Shown one piece after another: positions 5,285 through 52,498 of a stretch of DNA of 52,498 bases. The first letter of the stretch is position 1. Every line of letters begins with the position of its first letter. The notes beneath the pieces were generated by a model. The model did not search any database, had not been told where the DNA came from, and saw only the letters and a program-made list of their open reading frames with translations. The stretch comes from Tahibacter aquaticus (GTDB lineage Bacteria > Pseudomonadota > Gammaproteobacteria > Xanthomonadales > Rhodanobacteraceae): assembly GCF_004363655.1 (NCBI RefSeq), contig NZ_SNZH01000027.1, positions 1-52,498 on the forward strand, given 5' to 3'. The translations under genes and the position numbers were made by a program.

Positions 5285-7720
<2,436 letters not shown>

Positions 7721-41149: not shown

Positions 41150-41431
41150 GACCGATTCCTGTAAATCGTCCGCCGGTTCGCTTCCTACGGGGAGGAGGCG
41201 CACCCGACCGCCAATGCAGCGCGGGCGCTCCCAACCGGCCTTGCGGCCGGCGAAGCCCCGTCTGCCAGCCCGGTAGGAAAAAGCTGCAACAGCAGTGCCG
41301 GCCGGCAGTTCGCGACGAACGCTCAATCACCAATTTCTTCCGCGTACGTGGCAAGCCGGAGTCGCTTTCTGTTCGCAGCGGGGGCGCTACGCGTCTGCGT
41401 AGTGCATTTATTTATAAATGGAGGGTGGGAG

Positions 41432-44326
41432 ATGAGCAATTCAAGAATCGGCCGGCTGTCGCTGCTGGCTGCAGGCCTGTTCGGCTGTGCATTGGGGTTT
41501 GCGCTGCAGGCCGAAGAAGAACACAGCATCGGCCGCGCGGTGGCTTTCTCGATCGATGCCAGCAAAGGCGCCGACAAGCGGGTCGACTACACGGCCCTGC
41601 AGGCATTGGGCCCCTGGGATGACCGCAACTACGCGCTGACCGCGGCAGACCTGGCCTTGCTGTCCAAGAACGAAGCCGACACCATCGTCGCGATTCCGGT
41701 GTTCTACCGCGTGGAAATGCGCAAAGCGAACAAGGAACTGCCGACCTTCGGCCCGGTGCAATATCCGCGCAGCGCATTGAACGGCTACCTGGCCAAATAC
41801 GGCGGCTATCGCATCGACGGCAAAACGTATACCGCGGTCAGCGCCGACGCGGCCGGTGCCTATCGCGTACACGAATCGCTGCCGCGGGATGAAGCCTCGC
41901 GCAACAGCGTCTTCCAGAATTTCCTCGGCGGTGAAAAACGCATCACCACGCCGGCCGGCGCGTCCGAATCGGCCGTGGCGATCAACCCGGTGAATACCAA
42001 TATCGTCATCGCCGGCACCAACGGCCCGGGCAGCGGCCAGAAAATGTGGCGTTCCACCGACGGCGGCCAGAGCTGGGGCAGCGCCATCGCCCTGGCCGGC
42101 ACCTGCTGCGACCCGGCCGTGGGCTGGTCGCCCGACGGCACGGTCGGCTATGCCTCGGCGCTCTCCAGCGTGGTCGGCAGCGGCACCAATGTGTATTTCT
42201 ACCGTTCTACCGACAACGGCGCCAGCTGGACGCGCAGTGCAACCCTGTCCAACCAGAACACCTCGGACAAGGAATACCTGCACGTCGACATGCACGCGAC
42301 CTCGCCGCACAAGGGCAACATCTACGTCGCCTGGCACGACAACAACATCCAGAAGATCGCCCGTTCGACCAACGGCGGCACCGCGTTCGGCGCAACCCTG
42401 ACCCTGGACGGTGCCAACCGCGGCATCGGCAGCGACATCACCTCGGACACCGCCGGCAACGTCTACTTCTTCTACCCGGCCACTTCCGGCGGCAGCCTGG
42501 GCAAAGCCATCCGCATGGCCAAGTCCACCGACGGCGGCGCCAGCTTCGGCAGCGCGTCGACGGTAAGCACGACCAATGCCGATTTCGATTTCCCGATTCC
42601 GGCCATGGAATCGCGCCGCGCCTTCATCTACGTGTCGGTCGACACGGACCGTTCCGGCGGCAGCTTCAACAACAGCCTGTACGTATCCTGGACCGACACC
42701 TCCACCACCGAAAACAACACCAGCGCGACGGCCAACCACGCCATCATCCGCGTCGCGCGCTCGCGCGACGGCGGCGCCACCTGGCAGATTTCCTCGCCGC
42801 ATTCCAGCAGCGACGTGAGCACGGTCGACCGCTTCAACCAATGGCTGTCGGTAGACCGCAATGGCCGCGTATTCGTGATGTATTACGACACGCGCCATTC
42901 CAGCGGGCGTAGCGGCACCGACCTGTACTACGCGGTTTCCAGCGACGGCGGCGTAACCTGGGGCACGGCGACGCGCCTGACCACGGTGACCTCGAAGAAC
43001 ATCAGCGAAGCCAACGAATGGGGCGACTACAACGGCATGGACGTGGCCCTGAACGAGATCATGGCCATCTATACCGACAATCGCGACGAATCCGGCGGCA
43101 CGGCCGAATCCAAGGACGTCTATGGCATCGGCGGCTTCGCCGGCCCTGCCGGCAACCAGGCGCCGGTGGCGAACTTCAGCGCGGCGACCAGCGGCCTTAC
43201 CGCCACGTTCACCGACAGCTCCAGCGACAGCGACGGCACCATCGCCTCGCGCAGCTGGAACTTCGGCGACAGCAGCACGTCCACCGCGACCAACCCGAGC
43301 AAGACCTATGCGGCCGCCGGCACCTACACCGTCACGCTGACCGTCACCGATAACGCCGGCGCCACCAACACCACGTCGAAGCCGGTCACCGTCAGCAGCG
43401 GCAGCAACGTGCCGCCGGTCGCCAACTTCAGCGTTGCCACCAGCGGCCTCACCGCCACGTTCACCGACAGCTCCAGCGACAGCGACGGCACCATCGCCGC
43501 GCGCAGCTGGAACTTCGGCGACGGCAGCACGTCCACCGCGACCAGCCCGAGCAAGACCTATGCGGCCGCCGGCACCTACACCGTCACGCTCACCGTCACC
43601 GACAACAGCGGCGCCACCAACACCACGTCGAAGCCGGCCACCGTCACTGCACCGCCAGGCGGCAACGTGCTGCAAAACGGCGTGGCGATCACCGGCCAGT
43701 CCGGCGCGACCGGCTCCAACACCTACTACACGATGGTCGTACCGGCCGGTGCGAGCAATCTGAAGTTCGTGACCAGTGGTGGGACCGGCGATGCCGATCT
43801 CTACGCACGCTTCGGTTCGCAGCCGACGACCACGACCTACGATTGCCGCTCCGAAAGCGGCACGAATGCCGAAACCTGCACCATCGCAACAGCGCAGGCC
43901 GGCACCTACCACGTACTGGTGCGCGGCTATGCAACCTACTCGGGCCTGGGCATCACCGGCAGCTATACCACCGGCGGTGGCGGCACGCAGACCTACACCA
44001 ACACCACCGATTTCACCATCACTGACAACACGACGGTCGACAGCCCGATCACGGTATCGGGCCGCACCGGCAATGCGCCGAGCAATGCCTCGGTCACGGT
44101 CGCGATCGTGCACACCTACCAGGGCGACCTCAAAGTCGATCTCGTGGCGCCGGACGGTTCGCTCTACAACATCCACAACCGCACCGGCAGCTCCACGCAG
44201 AACATCAACAAGACCGTCACGCTGAACCTGTCCAGCGAAGCGCTCAACGGCACCTGGAAGCTCCGCGTCAATGACAACGGCGCTGGCGACAGCGGCCGCA
44301 TCGACAGCTGGAGCGTCACCTTCTGA
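41432..44326 (+). CDS. Giant secreted BNR/sialidase-propeller protein with PKD-PKD-PPC-P tail
   Basis: The product has 964 residues. The start at 41432 has GGAGG 6 bases upstream and gives the signal peptide NSRIGRLSLLAAGLFGCALG. The first 570 residues form a propeller with BNR/Asp-box motifs (RSTDGGQSW, RSTDNGASW, KSTDGGASF, RSRDGGATW, SSDGGVTW). Two PKD domains (about 577-654 and 660-740), a PPC domain (about 745-846) and a P domain (about 852-964, ending IDSWSVTF) follow. PPC and P domains are common on exported hydrolases and are often removed or used for sorting. No sialidase catalytic residues (FRIP, arginine triad) are seen, so it is probably a binding or unknown-activity propeller. 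The tail is nearly identical to that of the next gene. Confidence 0.9.
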   Translation: MSNSRIGRLSLLAAGLFGCALGFALQAEEEHSIGRAVAFSIDASKGADKRVDYTALQALGPWDDRNYALTAADLALLSKNEADTIVAIPVFYRVEMRKANKELPTFGPVQYPRSALNGYLAKYGGYRIDGKTYTAVSADAAGAYRVHESLPRDEASRNSVFQNFLGGEKRITTPAGASESAVAINPVNTNIVIAGTNGPGSGQKMWRSTDGGQSWGSAIALAGTCCDPAVGWSPDGTVGYASALSSVVGSGTNVYFYRSTDNGASWTRSATLSNQNTSDKEYLHVDMHATSPHKGNIYVAWHDNNIQKIARSTNGGTAFGATLTLDGANRGIGSDITSDTAGNVYFFYPATSGGSLGKAIRMAKSTDGGASFGSASTVSTTNADFDFPIPAMESRRAFIYVSVDTDRSGGSFNNSLYVSWTDTSTTENNTSATANHAIIRVARSRDGGATWQISSPHSSSDVSTVDRFNQWLSVDRNGRVFVMYYDTRHSSGRSGTDLYYAVSSDGGVTWGTATRLTTVTSKNISEANEWGDYNGMDVALNEIMAIYTDNRDESGGTAESKDVYGIGGFAGPAGNQAPVANFSAATSGLTATFTDSSSDSDGTIASRSWNFGDSSTSTATNPSKTYAAAGTYTVTLTVTDNAGATNTTSKPVTVSSGSNVPPVANFSVATSGLTATFTDSSSDSDGTIAARSWNFGDGSTSTATSPSKTYAAAGTYTVTLTVTDNSGATNTTSKPATVTAPPGGNVLQNGVAITGQSGATGSNTYYTMVVPAGASNLKFVTSGGTGDADLYARFGSQPTTTTYDCRSESGTNAETCTIATAQAGTYHVLVRGYATYSGLGITGSYTTGGGGTQTYTNTTDFTITDNTTVDSPITVSGRTGNAPSNASVTVAIVHTYQGDLKVDLVAPDGSLYNIHNRTGSSTQNINKTVTLNLSSEALNGTWKLRVNDNGAGDSGRIDSWSVTF
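43162..44326 (+). repeat. Long direct repeat, copy 1 (PKD-PKD-PPC-P tail)
   Basis: This 1.16-kb stretch is highly similar in DNA to 46894-48053, with long runs of identity (for example across the PPC segment from GGCAACGTGCTGCA onward). A more diverged, single-PKD version is at 6800-7720. Within each copy the two PKD units are themselves near-identical tandem duplicates. Confidence 0.85.
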
Positions 44327-44624: not shown

Positions 44625-47600
44625 ATGCACGTACGCCCTGTTGCCCGGTGCCACCTGCTCCTGTTCGTGGCCGCCGTTTCCGTTTCCTCCCTCGCCAGCG
44701 CCCAGTCCGATACGCCGTTCGACGGCGACCGCGTCAATCGGCCGCGCGAGGAAAGCTGGCAGATCGAGCAGCGCCAGTTGTGGTTCATCCAGTCGCGCGG
44801 TCTCGACCGCGTTGCCAATGCCGACAGCGAACGGCGCAAGGCCGCGGCCGAACTCAAGGCCGAGGTCGAACGCCTGGCGCCGCTGCAGCACGCCGCCGGC
44901 GAAACCTGGGCGCCGCTGGGCCCCTCGTCCATGAACATGAGCAACTGGGTCATGGGCCGCGTCTCCGGCCGCAACAACGCCGTGGTGCCGCATCCCACCG
45001 ATGAAAACACCGTCTACTTCGGCGCCGCCGCCGGCGGCGTCTGGAAGACCAGCAACGGCGGTACGTCATGGACGCCGCTGTTCGACCAGGTCGGCACCCT
45101 GCCCATCGGCGCGCTGTTCGTCGAGCCGGCGGCGCCGGCCAACGTATGGGTCGGCACCGGCGACAGGAACGGCGGCGGCTGTGCCGGTTACTTCGGTCAG
45201 GGCCTGTACGTGAGCAGCGACAGCGGCAGCAGCTGGCAGGCGCGCAACGGCAGCGGCAGCGGAGCCATGCCGCTGTCCATCGTCAATGCCGTCGCGGTGC
45301 AGCCGACCAATGCGAACGTCGTGCTCGCCGGCGGTGCCGGCAGCTGCAGCAGCGGCTCGCTGTCGGGTTCGGGCCTGTACCGCTCGGCCGATCGCGGCGG
45401 CAGCTGGACCAAGACACTCAACGGCAACGTCGAAGACCTGATCTTCGTGCCCAATTCCGCCACCGTCTTCGCCGGCGTAGCCGGCAGCGGTGTGCACAAA
45501 TCCACCGACGGCGGCGCCACCTGGACCGCCATGAACAGCGGCCTCAGTGTGTCGGGCTCGCGCCTGCGCCTGGCCATGGCAGCGAGCAACAGCAACGTGC
45601 TCTACGCCCTGCAGAGCGGCAGCCTGCACCGCAGCGCCGACGGCGGCGCCAGCTGGTCGCTGCGGAGCAGCACCGCCTGCGAAGGCCAGTGCAGCTACAA
45701 CCTGGCCATCGACGTACATCCCAGCCAGCCCGACACCGTTCTCGTCGGCAGCATCCGCACCGCGCGCTCCACCAACGGCGGCAGCAGCTTCACCATCCTG
45801 CATTCCACCTGGGGCAGCAGCCAGGCCGTGCATCAGGACACCCACGTCGTGCGCTATTCGCGCAACAACCCCGATCGCTTCTGGATCGGCACCGACGGCG
45901 GTGTCTGGCGCACGGACAACAGCGGCAGCAGCTGGGTGAACATGAATTCCAACCTCAATGTCACCCAGTTCTACGACATCAGCGTCCATCCGACCAATCC
46001 CGACATCGTGTTCGGCGGCGCCCAGGACAACTCCTCGTCGCGCCGCAGCAGCAGTGCCGTGTGGGACCTGACCTTCGTCTCTGGCGACGGCTTCATGAAC
46101 GCGATCGACACGACCAATCCGTCCATCGTGTTCCAGACCAGCTATCCCTCGGGCAACTTTCCCAGCATCTACCGTTCGACCAATGGCGGCGGCGCCAACA
46201 GCTTCAGCAAGCTGGCGACGACCGGCATGACCGCATCGTCGAGCTTCCCCTGGGTCACGCCGATGGCGGTGGCGAGCAATCGCCTGTTCGTCGCATCCAA
46301 CGTGGTCTATCGCGCCACCACCTCGGCCAGTCCGATGTCCTGGACGGCGATCTCCGGCAGCCTGGGCTCGGCCGTGTCGGTGATCACGCCAGTGAGCATG
46401 GGCGTGCTGATACCGACCTATGTCGGCACCTCGAGCGGACGCATCTACGCCACGCCGGACGCGGCCGTGCCGAGCGCGACCTTCACCGACGTCACCGGCA
46501 ACTACCCCGGCGGCGTGGTTTCCGACGTGGCCATGGACCCGCTCAACGCACAGCGCGTGTTCGTCACGCGGGCCGGTTTCGGCGCTTCACGCCTGTACCG
46601 TTCCACCAGCGGCGGCACCACCTGGAGCGCGGTAGGCACCGGCCTGCCCAACGTGCCGGCCAATGCCGTCGCCATCGATCCGCTCAACACCAACCGTATC
46701 TTCGTCGGCACCGACGTCGGCGTGTATGAAAGCGCCGATGGCGGCAACACCTTCACCGCCTTCTCTACCGGGCTGCCGCTGGGCCTGGTCGTGACCGATC
46801 TCGAAATCGACGACTCGCCGCACGTGCTCAGCGCCGGCACCTACGGCCGCGGCGCCTGGAACGTCACGCTCAACAACGGCGGCAACCTGGCGCCGACCGC
46901 GAACTTCAGCGTCGCCACCAACGGCCTTACCGCCAGCTTCACCGACAGCTCCAGCGACAGCGACGGCAGCATCGCCTCGCGCAGCTGGAACTTCGGCGAC
47001 AGCAGCACCTCCACGGCGACCAACCCGAGCAAGACCTATGCGGCCGCCGGTACCTACACCGTCACACTGACCGTCACCGACAACGCCGGCGCCACCAACA
47101 CCACGTCGAAGCCGGTCACCGTCAGCAGCGGCAGCAACGTGCCGCCGGTCGCCAACTTCAGCGTCGCCGCCAACGGCCTCACCGCCACATTCACCGATAC
47201 CTCCAGCGACAGCGACGGCAGCATCGCCTCGCGCAGCTGGAACTTCGGCGACAGCAGCACGTCCACGGCCACCAACCCGAGCAAGACCTACGCGGCCGCC
47301 GGCACCTACACCGTCACACTGACCGTCACCGACAACGCCGGCGCCACCAACACCACGTCGAAGCCGGTCACCGTCACTGCACCGCCAGGCGGCAACGTGC
47401 TGCAGAACGGCGTGGCGATCACCGGCCAGTCCGGCGCGACCAGTTCCGACACCTACTACACGCTGGTCGTGCCAGCCGGTGCGAGCAATCTGAAGTTCGT
47501 GACCAGTGGTGGGACTGGCGATGCCGATCTCTATGCGCGCTTCGGTTCGCAGCCGACCACGACGACCTACGATTGCCGCTCCGAAAGCGGCACCAATGCC

Positions 47601-48053
47601 GAAACCTGCACCATCGCGACGGCGCAGGCCGGCACCTACCACGTACTGGTGCGCGGCTATGCGGCCTACTCGGGCCTGAGCATCACCGGCAGCTACACCA
47701 CCGGCGGCGGCGCGCAGACCTATACCAACACCAGTGACTTCAGCATCACCGACAACGCGACAGTGGACAGCCCCATCACCGTATCCGGCCGCAGCGGCAA
47801 CGCGCCGGCCAGCACACCGGTGAGCGTCGCCATCGTCCACACCTACATCGGCGATCTCAAGGTCGACCTGGTCGCACCCGACGGCACGCTCTACAGCATC
47901 CACAACAAGACCGGCGGCGCCACACAGAACCTCAACACCACGCTCAACCTCAACCTGTCCAGCGAGCCGCTCAACGGCATCTGGAAACTGCGCGTCAACG
48001 ACAGCGGCCCCGGCGACACCGGCCGCATTGACAGCTGGAGCGTCACCTTCTAG
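44625..48053 (+). CDS. Giant secreted BNR-propeller (sortilin/Vps10-like) protein with PKD-PKD-PPC-P tail
   Basis: The product has 1142 residues. The signal peptide is VARCHLLLFVAAVSVSSLASA. A helical segment (about 30-90) leads to a long propeller (about 90-750) with many Asp-box repeats (KTSNGGTSW, YVSSDSGSSW, RSADRGGSW, KSTDGGATW, RSADGGASW, RTDNSGSSW, ESADGGNTF), of the type seen in Vps10/sortilin-like and photosystem-assembly-like ten-bladed propellers, including GAAAGGVWKTSNGG, common in secreted bacterial members. Then PKD (about 757-834), PKD (839-917), PPC (924-1025) and P (1031-1142, ending IDSWSVTF). No protease or sialidase catalytic set is seen. Its tail closely copies that of the preceding gene. 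Probably extracellular, role unknown. Confidence 0.9.
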   Translation: MHVRPVARCHLLLFVAAVSVSSLASAQSDTPFDGDRVNRPREESWQIEQRQLWFIQSRGLDRVANADSERRKAAAELKAEVERLAPLQHAAGETWAPLGPSSMNMSNWVMGRVSGRNNAVVPHPTDENTVYFGAAAGGVWKTSNGGTSWTPLFDQVGTLPIGALFVEPAAPANVWVGTGDRNGGGCAGYFGQGLYVSSDSGSSWQARNGSGSGAMPLSIVNAVAVQPTNANVVLAGGAGSCSSGSLSGSGLYRSADRGGSWTKTLNGNVEDLIFVPNSATVFAGVAGSGVHKSTDGGATWTAMNSGLSVSGSRLRLAMAASNSNVLYALQSGSLHRSADGGASWSLRSSTACEGQCSYNLAIDVHPSQPDTVLVGSIRTARSTNGGSSFTILHSTWGSSQAVHQDTHVVRYSRNNPDRFWIGTDGGVWRTDNSGSSWVNMNSNLNVTQFYDISVHPTNPDIVFGGAQDNSSSRRSSSAVWDLTFVSGDGFMNAIDTTNPSIVFQTSYPSGNFPSIYRSTNGGGANSFSKLATTGMTASSSFPWVTPMAVASNRLFVASNVVYRATTSASPMSWTAISGSLGSAVSVITPVSMGVLIPTYVGTSSGRIYATPDAAVPSATFTDVTGNYPGGVVSDVAMDPLNAQRVFVTRAGFGASRLYRSTSGGTTWSAVGTGLPNVPANAVAIDPLNTNRIFVGTDVGVYESADGGNTFTAFSTGLPLGLVVTDLEIDDSPHVLSAGTYGRGAWNVTLNNGGNLAPTANFSVATNGLTASFTDSSSDSDGSIASRSWNFGDSSTSTATNPSKTYAAAGTYTVTLTVTDNAGATNTTSKPVTVSSGSNVPPVANFSVAANGLTATFTDTSSDSDGSIASRSWNFGDSSTSTATNPSKTYAAAGTYTVTLTVTDNAGATNTTSKPVTVTAPPGGNVLQNGVAITGQSGATSSDTYYTLVVPAGASNLKFVTSGGTGDADLYARFGSQPTTTTYDCRSESGTNAETCTIATAQAGTYHVLVRGYAAYSGLSITGSYTTGGGAQTYTNTSDFSITDNATVDSPITVSGRSGNAPASTPVSVAIVHTYIGDLKVDLVAPDGTLYSIHNKTGGATQNLNTTLNLNLSSEPLNGIWKLRVNDSGPGDTGRIDSWSVTF
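46894..48053 (+). repeat. Long direct repeat, copy 2 (PKD-PKD-PPC-P tail)
   Basis: This is the partner of 43162-44326, in the same orientation, 3.7 kb apart. Recombination between the copies would remove the second propeller but keep one intact tail. Confidence 0.85.
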
Positions 48054-48181: not shown

Positions 48182-48369
48182 AATGGGTTACGGGTAGTGG
48201 CGAGGCACGACACTACCCGGCTGTCGGGAATCGCGCCTTCTTCACTGCCGCGGTAGAGCCGGCCAATCGCGGCGCTGCGGGTGCTCGCGGGTGCTTGCGG
48301 GGGGGGTTCCTCAACGGCCTGCTGATTCCGGTGCTACGCACCAGGCATTGGGCGCTGTAGACCACCCTG

Positions 48370-48417
48370 CCACTCCATAGTCAGGCACTCGTCGCGGAAC
48401 TTGCCGTTGATGTCCAG
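48370..48417 (-). pseudogene. Short IS3-family transposase relic
   Basis: Sixteen codons on the minus strand read LDINGKFRDECLTMEW. This matches the catalytic-core motif FNGKFRDECL of IS3-family OrfB transposases (around the DDE glutamate). Neither side continues the match. It is a leftover scrap that marks an old insertion or recombination point beside the RT island. Confidence 0.6.
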
Positions 48418-48420
48418 CCT

Positions 48421-48660
48421 AATTGACAGTGGAGGCTATCTTGACCCGCTGCAGCCGCCATATCGACTTGAATCTCGGCCGAGTCAGGATGACCGACACG
48501 CCACGGGTGAATCCCGAGGCCGAGGTGCGCATCATCCTGCGTTCGCAACTACCGGCACGTCGCACGAACAATCCTGCGCTCTCAAACCAAGACCTTCTGG
48601 TCGCGGGTAGTCACCTTTAGCAGTAATGCACAGTACCGCCAGCGATCCCGCTCAACAGGA
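48421..48660. other. Gap with no supported gene, left flank of the RT island
   Basis: A plus-strand frame of 65 codons (48423-48620) has protein-like composition (EAEVRIILRSQLPARR), but neither a recognised family nor a good ribosome binding site. I make no gene call. The stretch separates the IS3 relic from the terminator of the RT operon. Confidence 0.4.
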
Positions 48661-48774
48661 GAAAAAAGGCGGCCCGTTCCTACCGCCCGTGCCCGCGTCT
48701 CATTGCATCTGAGATACAAGCTGGCGCTTGTGTGTGAGCTGCCCACAGCCATTGGGTAGAACGGAGCGCCAACT
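48661..48774 (-). ncRNA. Candidate DRT3 non-coding RNA with a (CA)4 template tract
   Basis: The minus strand between the second RT stop codon (48775) and a T6 terminator has no ORF but clear structure. UUGGCGCU (48772-48765) pairs with AGCGCCAG (48728-48721), 7 Watson-Crick pairs plus one wobble. Inside lie a small hairpin, CCCA (48756-48753) with UGGG (48745-48742), or a competing GCUG/CAGC one, and then a loop with CACACACA (48736-48729). A second hairpin UCUCA/UGAGA follows, then the terminator. In my recollection of published DRT3 work, the RNA carries an ACACAC template from which Drt3a makes poly(GT). The position, strand, unpaired repeat and terminator fit that model. The 5' end is unknown: it may be processed from the RT mRNA or have its own promoter inside the RT gene. 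Confidence 0.7.
48662..48687 (-). terminator. Intrinsic terminator of the RT-ncRNA transcript
   Basis: On the minus strand GGCGG (48687-48683), a 10-base loop, CCGCC (48672-48668), followed directly by TTTTTT (48667-48662). The stem is short but all G/C and the T6 tract is uninterrupted. It is about 90 bases after the RT stop codon, leaving space for the candidate RNA. Confidence 0.75.
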
Positions 48775-50856
48775 TCAATATACCTCGACACTTCGTTTCG
48801 ATTCCAGTGCCCAAGCTAAGTCGAAACTCTTGCCCCACGCAGTGAACCACCGCTTCGTCGCATCTCGCAAGGCGTAGAACTGGCAGATATTGTCTAACCC
48901 AAAGACCCGACAGGATTCCACCTTCGTCCTGTCGTCTAGATACGGACAGGAAACGACGTCCAGCAAAAGCATCAGGCATTCACAGCTATCCCACCTACGA
49001 CGCTCGTTTCCGAGCTTATCGATGATGTGCGCTTGAAGAAACGCACGAATCTGGCGATATCGCTTCTTGTCTCCTACATAAGAAAGCAAGACTGTAACGG
49101 AGAAATAGTCGAGATACCCTGGCCGAAGCAATGCTTCAAAGTTTTCGTTAATCCGAAAGAATCTCGCCAGCTGCAGCTGAGACAAACGATAACTCCCCCC
49201 AAGCTGCTGGAGAGTCACTAGCAAATAAAGACTGTCAATACCGCGAAACTCTCGGCGAAAGTTTCTGTTCAGCTGCACAAACAAATTATCAAATATATAC
49301 TTAAAAATTCTATGCCGAAGCTCGCTAGAAAAAGCTCGAGTTTGTAGAAACCTAATCGACGTACAAAGCATCCGGCAAAGCCGCACAACATGATTTACCC
49401 TAGGCTCGGTCGAGTAGCAAAAGAATACCGTCTCAAGCACTGAATGAACTGCGGCCACTACTCGCTGCCTGTCCCCGGCCTCCTGCTTCGAGTCCAAGAA
49501 TTTCTCAACAACTTGAGTCAATTTCCGCTCCATAGCGGCCAATGTGTAGTTAAGCAGATCAGAATACGCGACGCGGGTCTCAACGACTATTGCTTTGTAT
49601 TTTGTTATTAATCTAGTGCTGTTGGCGCGACACGAAAAGCTTAGCGAATCACTGGACTCGACATGTGTCAGTAGCGGAACAATTTCCGAATCCAAGAGCG
49701 CGGAAACCTTGTCCTTCGCAATCGTCAATTCAGTAATTATTGGCTTTTCGTAGTCACGCAGCTTTGACTCGTTAATACCAAGTCTTTGCGCACGCAACGC
49801 CCTCTGAACAATATTAACAATTGCGGACCGGTTCTTCTTGTCGTTATAGAATATATAAAAATCATCGACATACCGAAAAACCTCGTAATCGACCCCGTGA
49901 ACTAACGGAATAGCAAGCTCACCAAGCTCTTTCTCTATCAAGGAGTCAACGGACTGCAGGATAATCTCGGCAAACACTCGCGAAAATTCCGGGCCAATGA
50001 CTATTCCATGCGTCTCGCCATCGTTTAGCGAACTCATTAACGCATCGAAACGCCCCGAAAATGTTCCTCCGATATCGCCTAAGTTAAGCTTTGTTCTTTC
50101 TCTGCCAAGAATCGCCCAAGCAATGGAATGAGTGTAGATGCTATCAAAACATTTGCTAACATCGATCAGCGTCATCGCATCATATTGCGACTCGCACCTA
50201 TGATAGTCCTTTGACTCAAAGAACCTATGAATATTCCTATAGTTTTTGTATACAAAGAATGATCCAAGCTTTTCGTATTCTTTGCCGTACTGCTCAACGC
50301 CACGGGTCTCGGAGTCGACTCTCTGTAAATGGAGGCTATCATTAAAGAATGTGCTCCTGGCAACCCTAACAGGCCGACGAATGGAGAACTTGCTAGCAGA
50401 AGCGTAGTAAGCGATTAGATTTCGGAATTTTGAGTAGAAAGCGGAGACTTCTAGCTGGCTAAACGGGTGAGGGATCGTCAGCGCTCTACCACCCAGACCG
50501 TGAGACACAATAAACGAAAATGGTGCTCGCCAATTTTTCTTGTTTGCTAGCCCGCTCGCCGGCCGCGCGACAAGCGATCTCGTCGCTCTTCGCTTCCCCC
50601 ACGCCGTAGTAGTTGAAGTCGAAACTTTAGAACCAGGAAGCATCCCCGAAATCAGCTGCATTACGACATCTAGACTAGAATCGTCGCAAGACCAAGATAG
50701 AGTTCCACACTCTGACTCATAGCGGACATTGAATTCCTCAAGAAAGGAATAGAACCCTCGATTCGAGAAGGTAGGCGGAACTTCAAATGGAAGTGTATCC
50801 GTAAGTATCGGACGAAACTCCGATCTAGAAAGGGGCCTTCGCTTACCGCGGCGCAT
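48775..50856 (-). CDS. drt3b: Defence-associated reverse transcriptase, Drt3b-like (UG8)
   Basis: The product has 693 residues. It starts inside the upstream RT gene with a 14-base overlap. The RT core is recognisable but diverged: motif A LIDVSKCFDSIYTH (about 228-242), motif B HGIVIGPEFSRVFAEIILQ, motif C FRYVDDFYIF (Y-V-D-D about 326-330) and a thumb-like part with KLRDYEKPIITELTIAKDK. The N-terminal 180 residues and the C-terminal 300 residues are mainly helical, match no fused enzyme I can recognise, and give the long size expected of Drt3b. No maturase, integrase or endonuclease domain is present, so it is not a group II intron RT. The gene is AT-rich compared with its surroundings. The assignment rests on the pairing with a Drt3a-like RT and on length. 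In the DRT3 model Drt3b makes the second, AC strand. Confidence 0.8.
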   Translation of the reverse strand: MRRGKRRPLSRSEFRPILTDTLPFEVPPTFSNRGFYSFLEEFNVRYESECGTLSWSCDDSSLDVVMQLISGMLPGSKVSTSTTTAWGKRRATRSLVARPASGLANKKNWRAPFSFIVSHGLGGRALTIPHPFSQLEVSAFYSKFRNLIAYYASASKFSIRRPVRVARSTFFNDSLHLQRVDSETRGVEQYGKEYEKLGSFFVYKNYRNIHRFFESKDYHRCESQYDAMTLIDVSKCFDSIYTHSIAWAILGRERTKLNLGDIGGTFSGRFDALMSSLNDGETHGIVIGPEFSRVFAEIILQSVDSLIEKELGELAIPLVHGVDYEVFRYVDDFYIFYNDKKNRSAIVNIVQRALRAQRLGINESKLRDYEKPIITELTIAKDKVSALLDSEIVPLLTHVESSDSLSFSCRANSTRLITKYKAIVVETRVAYSDLLNYTLAAMERKLTQVVEKFLDSKQEAGDRQRVVAAVHSVLETVFFCYSTEPRVNHVVRLCRMLCTSIRFLQTRAFSSELRHRIFKYIFDNLFVQLNRNFRREFRGIDSLYLLVTLQQLGGSYRLSQLQLARFFRINENFEALLRPGYLDYFSVTVLLSYVGDKKRYRQIRAFLQAHIIDKLGNERRRWDSCECLMLLLDVVSCPYLDDRTKVESCRVFGLDNICQFYALRDATKRWFTAWGKSFDLAWALESKRSVEVY

Positions 50857-52231
50857 ACTTCCACCCTTTAACTATTCGGCCTAGCTCATGAGTATTGAAG
50901 TTGTGATATACACGCTCTTCAAAGCCAACCTTAAATCGCATTGACTTGATACGCTTAACAAGGTTCCTAGATCGAGTTCGCTTAGCCAGCCTGACAAGCT
51001 GCTTGTCGAGTAGCGACAGGTTTTCTGTCTTATTGGCTAGCGAATTGCTGTAGTAGATACCAGTTGCGGCTGAGGATTTGTTACCAACAAGCTTGGTGTT
51101 TCCTGTAAGAAACTTTAGCCTGGCGATCAACTCCCTAAACGCCCGCCGTCGGCAAACTGATCTCTGCCTGTTATATATTGAGAATGATCTGGTCATTCTG
51201 AACTTGTACTTCGTTATCTTCTTGGCGCCAATTTCAACGGTGACGCGCGGTTCAACGCGGTTACCGGATCTGCACTTCGTAAATCTATATCCCAGATACT
51301 CGAATCGCGCGAGCCTACCCCTGATTAGCGTCGCCGGATCGGAAAGATTGAAGTACCTGGTCTTCTTCTCGTTAATTCGCAGACCAACTTCCAAGAGCTT
51401 CTCTTCTGCCACGCCCTTGATACTTAGAGCCGCTATTTCTGAGCTATCTCTCATCAGAATGAGGACAATATCGTCTACATATCGACAGTGGAGAACAACG
51501 CCTTCAATGCAGCGCACGCATGCATCAAATTCCGACAGAACAAGCTCCGCTAGATAGGCACTAATTCCAATTCCTCTCGGCAATCCGCGATCCATCCCGG
51601 AAAGTTTTTGGTAGCAATCCAGAACCTGCCTTATGAATTTCTTTGAAGCAGTACTAAGAATTCCGTCGCTATCCAATTTTTCAAGCAACATCTTTCTATC
51701 TATTGACTCATAAAACTGCGAAACATCGAGCCGAACAATCTCGTAACCAAGAGACCCAGCAAGCGCACCCCGAACTTGGCACGCTGCGTCGTGCCGGTTG
51801 GACTGCTTGATTGAATACGCTCGCCTGAGATTATTTTGCAGCTGCTTCAACACAAAATAGCTTTCTGGGCTTCCGTCCGCGACATAGACAATCTTCCCAC
51901 CGGGCCCCATTTTGGCTGCGATGTCGATTCTGAACCTGGACGAAAGGACGCGGTCGCTAGTGATCTGGAGCTGATCGTCAATTAGTCGTGACCGCCGAAG
52001 CCTGCACGCAGAAATTTCAGTTCTTATTTTGTTGACCTGATCGACAAGGTCTTTCTTCAATCTCCAATCATCGGCCGCTCTAATCTTTCGGATTCTCCCC
52101 GCACGATCTCGAATTTCTGACGAGATCGCGTGTGCATCTGGGAAGAACCTAGAGGCGAGGTCGTGGCCCCGCCGATTCTGTGAATCGAATATCTTTCTGA
52201 AATTTTTTGCAGTAAATAGCTGGTCTATCAT
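50843..52231 (-). CDS. drt3a: Defence-associated reverse transcriptase, Drt3a-like (UG3)
   Basis: The product has 462 residues from the ATG at 52231, where the family-like N-terminus MIDQLFTAKNFRKIFD begins; a GTG at 52240 is in frame three codons earlier. Neither has a strong ribosome binding site. RT motifs: A RLDVSQFYESIDR (about 165-177), B GLPRGIGISAYLAELVL, C CRYVDDIVLI (about 248-257), D/E region LEVGLRINEKKTRYF and FEYLGYRF. The C-terminal part is basic (TKYKFRMTRSFSIYNRQRSV, KRIKSMRF), suiting RNA binding. It is shorter than its partner and comes first, with overlapping translation into the Drt3b-like gene. Codon use is AT-rich, with many A- and T-ending codons, unlike the flanking genes. 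The pair matches the two-RT antiphage system DRT3 (UG3 plus UG8). Confidence 0.82.
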   Translation of the reverse strand: MIDQLFTAKNFRKIFDSQNRRGHDLASRFFPDAHAISSEIRDRAGRIRKIRAADDWRLKKDLVDQVNKIRTEISACRLRRSRLIDDQLQITSDRVLSSRFRIDIAAKMGPGGKIVYVADGSPESYFVLKQLQNNLRRAYSIKQSNRHDAACQVRGALAGSLGYEIVRLDVSQFYESIDRKMLLEKLDSDGILSTASKKFIRQVLDCYQKLSGMDRGLPRGIGISAYLAELVLSEFDACVRCIEGVVLHCRYVDDIVLILMRDSSEIAALSIKGVAEEKLLEVGLRINEKKTRYFNLSDPATLIRGRLARFEYLGYRFTKCRSGNRVEPRVTVEIGAKKITKYKFRMTRSFSIYNRQRSVCRRRAFRELIARLKFLTGNTKLVGNKSSAATGIYYSNSLANKTENLSLLDKQLVRLAKRTRSRNLVKRIKSMRFKVGFEERVYHNFNTHELGRIVKGWKYAPR

Positions 52232-52257
52232 TTTTCGCACCGATATTGTCTACGAGC

Positions 52258-52277
52258 CTATGTCTTGTAATACATAG
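52258..52277. promoter_or_regulatory. Short inverted repeat upstream of drt3a
   Basis: CTATGT, eight-base spacer, ACATAG, 27 bases before the drt3a start, in an AT-rich patch. It may belong to the promoter or 5' leader of the RT operon. No -35/-10 pair can be named with confidence. Confidence 0.4.
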
Positions 52278-52285
52278 TCGACGTG

Positions 52286-52309
52286 GCTGCGGCACAGTTC
52301 TGTGGCAGC
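52286..52309. promoter_or_regulatory. Long palindrome upstream of drt3a
   Basis: GCTGC-GG-CACAG-TT-CTGTG-GCAGC: two paired blocks of 5 bp with a 2-base bulge on one side. It lies 55 bases upstream of the drt3a start, where an operator or a leader hairpin would be expected. The remaining stretch to the IS end at 52408 has no gene. Confidence 0.45.
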
Positions 52310-52407
52310 CGGGATTTTCACGGTGATCTAAGAGTAGAAATCGACAGTCTTACTGGACCTCGTCTTCCTACTAGGGCACGAGGGAGCAATTGTTGTGGGT
52401 CGCCTAG

Positions 52408-52498
52408 CAGGCTGTTGAGAAACCAGTTTCCGCAGGCACAATGATAGGCGCCATCAATAACGGGTTAGCGAACAGCAATGCGCACAGCAGACGTCCAG
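52408..52498 (+). mobile_element. Left end of an IS5/IS1182-like insertion sequence (cut by the window edge)
   Basis: CAGGCTGTTGAGAAACC at 52408 resembles the terminal inverted repeats (GGCTGTTGA-A-A-A) of this group, and is preceded by CTAG, a common palindromic target. A transposase-like start follows 70 bases later. The other end is outside the window, so the exact family is open. Confidence 0.5.
52478..52498 (+). CDS. Transposase N-terminus (partial, 7 codons)
   Basis: ATG at 52478 opens MRTADVQ, which fits the N-termini of IS1182-like transposases (MRxxDxQ followed by LFSYV in known members). Only seven codons are visible, so the call rests mainly on the terminal-repeat-like sequence before it. 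Confidence 0.4.

Follow-up and report, generated by a model that had tools for sequence, protein, structure and literature searches.

A distant DRT3 operon of Tahibacter aquaticus and a candidate pseudoknot in its template RNA

The DRT3 operon

We have analysed a stretch of 52,498 nucleotides (nt) of Tahibacter aquaticus DNA (RefSeq assembly GCF_004363655.1, contig NZ_SNZH01000027.1), which we term the window. A complete DRT3 operon is confirmed on its minus strand between positions 48661 and 52240, comprising two reverse transcriptase (RT) genes, drt3a and drt3b, and a template RNA that lies directly downstream of them. The components are as follows.

50843..52231, minus strand: drt3a, an RT of the UG3 kind, 462 amino acids from the ATG (open reading frame, NF041747, PADLOC, AlphaFold2, family-consensus start)
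48775..50856, minus strand: drt3b, an RT of the UG8 kind, 693 amino acids, ATG start (open reading frame, NF041748, residue mapping, AlphaFold2)
48661..48774, minus strand: DRT3 template non-coding RNA (ncRNA); extent from the covariance model R1 described below (95.7 bits), so that the true ends may differ

The open reading frame (ORF) of drt3a can be read from an upstream GTG (50843-52240, 465 amino acids) or from the ATG at 52231 (462 amino acids); we take the latter as the start because it matches the family start M-x-D-Q. The two genes overlap by 14 bases in the ORF list. Both proteins contain an intact YVDD motif, at residues 251-254 of Drt3a and 329-332 of Drt3b, and in Pfam at E ≤ 0.1 there is no maturase or integrase domain in either RT, RVT_1 alone being found in each. 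A first-pass annotation of this DNA had described two minus-strand RT genes overlapping by 14 bases, with intact Y-V-D-D motifs and no maturase or integrase; the ORFs (50843-52240 and 48775-50856), the protein sequences and the domain search bear this out. It had further named the genes, in order, as Drt3a (UG3, 462 residues) and Drt3b (UG8, 693 residues), and a profile search is in full agreement. Both proteins pass the cut-offs of the NCBIfam equivalog families by wide margins, with 378.9 bits for Drt3a against NF041747 (cut-off 200) and 646.2 bits for Drt3b against NF041748 (cut-off 350). The top PADLOC family for the upstream RT is Drt3a (359.8 bits, E = 6.7e-108; best differently named family 98 bits), and that for the downstream RT is Drt3b (604.6 bits; best differently named family 145.9 bits). 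The assignment to UG3 and UG8 is made on these profile margins, the tree presented below being of Drt3b alone and not of all UG classes. About 97% of UG3 RTs adjoin a UG8 RT, as stated in the text of PMC8934634, and the adjacency by which DRT3 is recognized, a UG3 RT next to a UG8 RT, is found here in overlapping genes.

Could the genes encode an RT pair of another kind, such as a retron, a diversity-generating retroelement, a group II intron or a different UG class? There are weak cross-matches to the group II maturase, Drt2, retron St85 and Drt4 models. The NCBIfam runner-up for Drt3a is the group II maturase (73.7 bits, cut-off 300) and that for Drt3b is Drt4 (107.2 bits, cut-off 450). The group II maturase model scores 37.8 bits on Drt3b, and the retron St85 model 40.6 bits on Drt3a and 17.5 bits on Drt3b (cut-off 235). 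Yet all the cross-matched models lie far below their cut-offs and the Drt3a and Drt3b models far above theirs, and the order of the RTs with a CA-template RNA downstream is the layout of the annotated DRT3 loci examined. We regard a different RT pair as exceedingly improbable. The retron and group II intron readings, which the first-pass annotation had itself named as the outcome that would speak against DRT3, are ruled out by profile scores far below the curated cut-offs.

Relatives of solved structure are found by sequence for both proteins: 26cz (3.1e-71, 244 bits) and 9z6y (2.4e-68) for Drt3b, and 9z6y (1.8e-25) for Drt3a. AlphaFold2 models were obtained with predicted local distance difference test values of 87.6 for Drt3a and 80.7 for Drt3b. 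The top Foldseek folds are DRT6, DRT4, UG15, AbiP2 and AbiK for the Drt3b model, and G2L4 and DRT9 for the Drt3a model, for which retron and group II RTs rank just below. Neither 9z6y nor 26cz is among the Foldseek matches listed (the PDB copy searched ends at 8 April 2026), so that the fold comparison goes no further than placing Drt3b and Drt3a near those RT groups. The predicted folds fit the division into class 1 and class 2 named in the text of PMC13174585.

Drt3b relatives and conserved working residues

How general is Drt3b? A scan of GTDB contigs with a ten-protein alignment gave 328 relatives, of which the best 80 were taken. These 80 are at most 48% identical to the window Drt3b, and belong to Pseudomonadota, Bacteroidota, Acidobacteriota, Verrucomicrobiota and Margulisiibacteriota. 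Relatives occur in 11 plasmid records (8 covering 80% of the query) and in 3 phage records (none covering 80%). A one-sequence scan of viral contigs found no Drt3b relative, and the alignment scan of the same contigs gave 30 loci, some without a full Drt3b. Within the order to which the window belongs the Drt3b cut-off is passed in 3 of 398 genomes, its own included, and the other two proteins are 25-27% identical. The first-pass annotation was correct that DRT3 is a known system, but its remark that it was not aware of the system from this bacterial group carries little weight, given 328 relatives with the best 80 spread over five phyla. The locus is also of less interest than that annotation supposed, since the mechanism, the structure and the roles of the residues have been published (text of PMC13174585) and the family is widespread.

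A FastTree phylogeny of 107 Drt3b sequences (midpoint root, long branches flagged) divides into two deep clades, which we have named in the present analysis clade I (21 sequences) and clade II (86 sequences). Clade II is the larger here because the search began from the window and retained its nearest relatives. Within clade II the window Drt3b stands alone on a long branch (0.96), next to 32 other sequences, with a local support of 99 for the group of 33; the odd amino-acid composition of this branch, and the use of FastTree where branches are long, count against the placement. The DRT3 literature examined contains no studied protein that is known to belong to clade II; the tree does not include 26cz. 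The set of 107 leaves out L079, L114, L117, L119, L121 and L122-L129 (these are truncated, short, broken or weak matches; L122 and L123, at 25-26% identity over part of the query, were removed by hand), L007-L009 (below the cut-off) and L013 (split gene). Counts for Drt3a refer to the 97 of these 107 loci that have an ORF of at least 390 amino acids in place. Two of the sequences, from Henriciella (L065) and Sneathiella (L066), are near-identical with end branches of about 0.005 although the hosts belong to different families. This suggests either a recent transfer or a shared contamination of the two metagenome-assembled genome records.

The working residues of EcoDRT3b include E22, R71, D182, F187, R241, the YVDD motif and the priming tyrosine Y666, according to the text of PMC13174585. 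By alignment, their counterparts in the window Drt3b are E25, R124, D232, F237, R293, Y329-D332 and Y693. Thus the residues corresponding to the nucleotide-selecting E22 and R241 (and R71) are all present, as E25 and R293 (and R124). R293, D232, F237, Y329, D331 and D332 are invariant in all 107 full-length Drt3b sequences, R124 is arginine in 106 and V330 is valine in 102. At the adenine-gate position there is glutamate in 103 of the 107 and aspartate in 4; the four with aspartate (L015, L113, L115 and L116) are all in clade I. The E22D substitution gives partial synthesis (text of PMC13174585). Y693 is the C-terminal residue of the window protein and is invariant in the ten-row alignment, and a tyrosine is found among the final four residues in 107 of 107 sequences; the alanine that L075 appears to have at this position is a misalignment, as that protein also ends in tyrosine. 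Drt3a has [YF]VDD in 96 of 97 loci and YADD in one. The pairwise identities of Drt3a and Drt3b are correlated over the 97 loci (Spearman 0.91, uncorrected for shared ancestry).

The template RNA

The elements assigned within the RNA are listed below, all on the minus strand.

48729..48736, minus strand: RNA template CACACACA, holding ACACAC at 48730-48735 (from the sequence; kept in relatives)
48765..48770, minus strand: 5′ strand of helix H1, GGCGCU, pairing with 48723-48728
48723..48728, minus strand: 3′ strand of helix H1, AGCGCC, directly after the template, pairing with 48765-48770
48759..48764, minus strand: 5′ strand of the candidate pseudoknot helix H2, CCGUUC, following the 5′ strand of H1 and pairing with 48674-48679
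48674..48679, minus strand: 3′ strand of H2, GAACGG, in the loop of H4, pairing with 48759-48764
48737..48750, minus strand: helix H3, GGCUG/CAGCU, ending directly before CACACACA (consensus)
48698..48714, minus strand: variable hairpin H5, UCUCA/UGAGA in the window (sequence; consensus helix position)
48667..48688, minus strand: helix H4, a hairpin followed by a U tract, with the 3′ strand of H2 in its loop (consensus, terminator scan)

The window contains a single copy of CACACACAAGC (48726-48736, minus strand), where 0.05 copies are expected; the sequence is also found in 5 of 100 shuffles. The ACACAC of the window starts 39 nt after the drt3b stop codon. Such a sequence is present no more than 300 nt after drt3b in 105 of the 107 loci, the window included; in controls, letter shuffles gave 6.4, and 4 of 107 gene ends of equal length contained it. 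The two remaining loci (L084 and L086, both from Orbaceae) have CACACA with an H1-like pair around it and place the template some 77 nt beyond the stop codon; the covariance model described next gives no match in either.

Rfam (Rfam 15) has no match in the window at its gathering thresholds. RNAalifold applied unprompted to an alignment of 36 sequences including the window (A3) returned H1, H3, H5 and H4, with double changes in 16 of 26 pairs. A covariance model of these helices (R1) matches the window RNA with 95.7 bits (E = 1.4e-18 in 1.0 Mb), the window being among the 36 training sequences. No other match is reported at E ≤ 1 in the 7.27-Mb host genome, in a search that scored 150 of 1542 first-look candidates; run on the window alone, R1 adds a weak match at 42819-42931 (13.2 bits). 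At E ≤ 0.1, R1 finds 69 of 94 loci, with one match each directly after drt3b, and 33 of these lie outside the training set. This search left out L079 and L104-L129, part of L104-L121 being searched separately. The 69 matched loci were aligned by R1 to give A4, in which 95.8% of 1765 cells in the R1 helices are paired, compared with 35-50% in slid controls, A4 being fitted to that structure. The first-pass annotation had proposed a structured RNA with a CA-repeat downstream of the genes, and the covariance-model match and the conserved ACACAC substantiate this.

H1 is paired in 97.2% of cells in A3 and 90.5% in A4, where four of its six pairs are doubly changed. H3 is paired in 100% and 99.1% of cells, respectively, and is likely to be a template-boundary hairpin. 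H5 shows many double changes among the relatives. H4 is paired in 98.6% of cells in A4 and with its U tract (48688-48667) is scored by a terminator scan, which finds 7 such sites in the stretch against 3.6 in shuffles. H4 and the U tract probably serve also as a terminator, and the 3′ end of the RNA is predicted at about 48661-48667.

A candidate pseudoknot

H2 crosses both H1 and H4. In A3 it is paired in 99.5% of 216 cells, compared with 33-62% for slid versions, and for three measures, the number of paired cells, that of doubly changed cells and the score for covariation, it stands above every one of 500 shuffles. A4 provides the stronger test because its model R1 contains no H2. There 94.4% of 413 cells over 69 loci are paired (slid versions 30-56%), all six pairs are doubly changed, and there are 63 doubly changed cells compared with 20.5 in shuffles, none of which is as high. 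In the 33 loci outside training the six pairs are formed in 25, 30, 30, 29, 30 and 31, and all six are present at once in 57 of the 69 loci.

A number of observations pull in the other direction. Two pairs of H2 are doubly changed in A3, a count reached by 15 of 500 shuffles, and its number of pair types is reached by 12 of 500; in A4, 4 of 500 shuffles also have all six pairs doubly changed. Sliding H2 by +1 in A4 likewise gives six doubly changed pairs, with 29 doubly changed cells compared with 63. Shuffle tests of H2 at single loci are weak (p = 0.19 for the window), and we have used the alignment counts in their place. R1 missed 25 of the 94 loci (7 in clade I, 18 in clade II), and with its misses in clade II the knot is not shown for the whole of that clade. 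Lastly, the window RNA folded alone adopts a nested minimum-energy form (-46 kcal/mol) in which H2 is formed and H1 and H4 are not.

This last result raises the possibility of the same DRT3 system with an RNA that has no pseudoknot, either because H2 belongs to a nested fold or because H1 and H4 alternate with H2 as a terminator/template switch. In the nested fold H2 grows to 11 pairs and is enclosed by an outer GGCG/CGCC pairing, which can form in the 36 close relatives of A3 (96.5% of 144 cells, mostly with G-U). But the outer pairing has no double changes in A3, and in A4 it is paired in 77.5% of 275 cells, where the shuffle mean is 75.9% and 54 of 500 shuffles are as high. The extension of H2 into the H4 stem does not covary; of its 265 cells 63.8% are paired, compared with 61.0% in shuffles, 19 of 500 of which reach that level. 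H1, H2 and H4 by contrast share no base, and each is doubly changed in relatives. The nested fold is disfavoured because its extra pairings do not covary, and we consider an RNA without the knot to be unlikely. From the comparative sequence data we favour a conserved pseudoknot in which H1, H2 and H4 would form together, although the counts speak against the nested fold and not against alternating states.

The system is already known, and the window locus is a distant member of it; the knot may be new. The word pseudoknot does not appear in the main texts of PMC13174585, PMC13314766 and PMC13213688, a statement that covers neither their figures and supplements nor the work of Deng et al. By title or abstract, literature matching both DRT3 and pseudoknot concerns DRT2 and DRT10 (including PMC12596737).

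Genomic context

The G+C content of the operon is 47.8%, compared with 66.4% in bases 1-48600 of the window. From this contrast the operon was probably acquired, and taken together with the sparse and distant relatives in the same order (3 of 398 genomes) it points to horizontal gain. One further feature lies upstream.

52404..52498, strand not assigned: end of a repeat at the contig end (the same 95 bases recur terminally in contigs C26 and C6)

This 95-base repeat, from CTAG onwards, closes the window contig and C26, and opens C6 of the same genome. Its end is 163 bases upstream of the drt3a GTG and 172 upstream of the ATG. The repeat is probably an insertion sequence, and accounts for the assembly break upstream of drt3a. 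At 48360-48420 on the minus strand there is a fragment which by eye we take to resemble an IS3-type transposase, so debris of mobile elements may also be present on the downstream side.

Is the operon then a remnant of past acquisition next to an insertion sequence, still whole in sequence yet silent or in decay in this host? The foreign base composition, the nearby repeat end and the transposase-like fragment would all be consistent with this, and there is no sigma-70-like site on the operon's strand in 48300-52498, which tells against an active operon. Set against these, both frames are open throughout, no catalytic, gating or priming residue has been lost, and H2 of the window has six Watson-Crick pairs, one of them doubly changed relative to the commonest pair, as selection would give. 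We judge decay to be still less likely than an RNA lacking the knot.

No defence island was found among the ten other ORFs of the window that were scanned. Three large proteins encoded on the plus strand (41348-44326, 44625-48053 and 5327-7720), the first two of them neighbours, share PKD, PPC and proprotein-convertase P domains in their C-terminal regions.

Proposed mechanism

We have little doubt that the locus encodes a whole abortive-infection system of the DRT3 kind, from a branch not studied before, and that it would act in the following manner. The genes, residues, RNA and conserved pairings are those observed above; for the repeat-DNA chemistry, the link to RecBCD and phage defence we argue by analogy with the E. 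coli work as given in the text of PMC13174585. Drt3a would copy the CACACACA RNA template repeatedly into poly-(dTdG). The H3 hairpin just 5′ of the template would be the likely stop, parallel to the template boundary of DRT10 and telomerase (text of PMC12632851), and H1 just 3′ of the template would frame the start. The H4 loop would pair with the stretch following the 5′ strand of H1, locking the template domain to the 3′ end of the RNA. Drt3b, primed on Y693, would make poly-(dCdA) without a nucleic acid template, with E25 gating dATP and R293 switching to dCTP. The two strands could then anneal into double-stranded repeat DNA that would normally be cleared by RecBCD. On infection by a phage that blocks RecBCD the repeat DNA would accumulate, and the growth of the cell would stop. 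The host has recC (694.9 bits) and greA genes that score above their cut-offs; the recB-like gene that adjoins recC scores 646.4 bits, under its cut-off of 696, and so fits this scheme less well.

Taken singly, the window locus is an ordinary further DRT3, and its value lies in the comparative anatomy of the RNA. A distant and intact member helps to reveal what is invariant. Across the 107 loci this holds for the CA-repeat template and, in Drt3b, for the switch to cytosine and the tyrosine that acts as primer. As the adenine gate, too, is always glutamate or aspartate, the RNA template and the protein 'template' seem to be locked together. The pseudoknot would offer a testable handle on how an RT is reset at a two-base repeat, a question common to DRT10 and telomerase. 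A covariance model of the clade II type of RNA would permit its annotation by others, Rfam 15 having no match at threshold.

Comparison with known systems

The RNAs of the two clades differ in layout. In clade I the template lies 101-261 nt after the stop codon (21 of 21 loci), compared with a median of 41 nt in clade II (84 loci, range 24-131). A stretch soon after the stop codon in clade I can pair with a stretch soon after the template, with p ≤ 0.05 in 13 of the 20 loci analysed (L106, a near-copy of L107, was left out); in the other 7 the closing stem is above p = 0.05, as for L107 (p = 0.307), yet the near kin L110 and L104 both give 0.001. This pairing suggests that the clade I RNA is longer and carries its template close to the 3′ end. 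The clade I layout, in which the template stands beyond 100 nt from the stop codon within a closing stem, is not that of the window RNA, whose ACACAC is at 39 nt. A search of 40 sources with R1 at E ≤ 10 gave 5 weak matches, every one of them in clade II, and nothing in any of the 21 clade I loci; the clade I RNA appears to lack the 3′ domain of clade II.

The E. coli DRT3 complex of Deng et al. (PDB 9z6y/9z6z) consists, like the window locus, of Drt3a, Drt3b and a CA-template RNA. L107, a locus with a Drt3b that aligns to 9z6y along the full 650 residues (1429 bits), shares the catalytic and gating residues of the window. Unlike the window locus it belongs to clade I, has its template 124 nt beyond the stop codon and gives no R1 match at E ≤ 10. 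All the listed working residues of the EcoDRT3 of Wang et al. 2026 (text of PMC13174585; 26cz) have counterparts in the window, but the two Drt3b proteins are distant in sequence (244 bits). The covariance model of that paper covers EcoDRT3 and close systems, with 41 homologous systems given in the legend and 32 unique hits in the methods. The DRT3 of E. coli plasmid CP083496 (L013) resembles the window in having a compact RNA, matched by R1 with 35.7 bits and with counterparts of H1 and H2 (p = 0.255 for its H2 on its own). It differs in that Drt3b is divided into two separate ORFs, with 35.6% identity to the window protein.

The DRT10 and telomerase RNAs, as described in the text of PMC12632851, have a short repeat template with a structured boundary element just 5′ of it, as does the window RNA; in telomerase this element is a stem-loop or a pseudoknot. 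The likeness is one of layout, and DRT10 differs in having a single RT and a 9-nt repeat. We tentatively suggest, at a little under even weight, that DRT3 has two RNA architectures. That of the unstudied clade II, at about 110 nt, would resemble a telomerase RNA in miniature, in which the repeat template is flanked by a boundary hairpin and a closing stem, and the loop of the terminator hairpin makes the knot. The knot might control repeat addition or assembly in a manner that could escape notice in the solved clade I complex, since the RNA of that clade has its template near the 3′ end and apparently lacks the 3′ domain.

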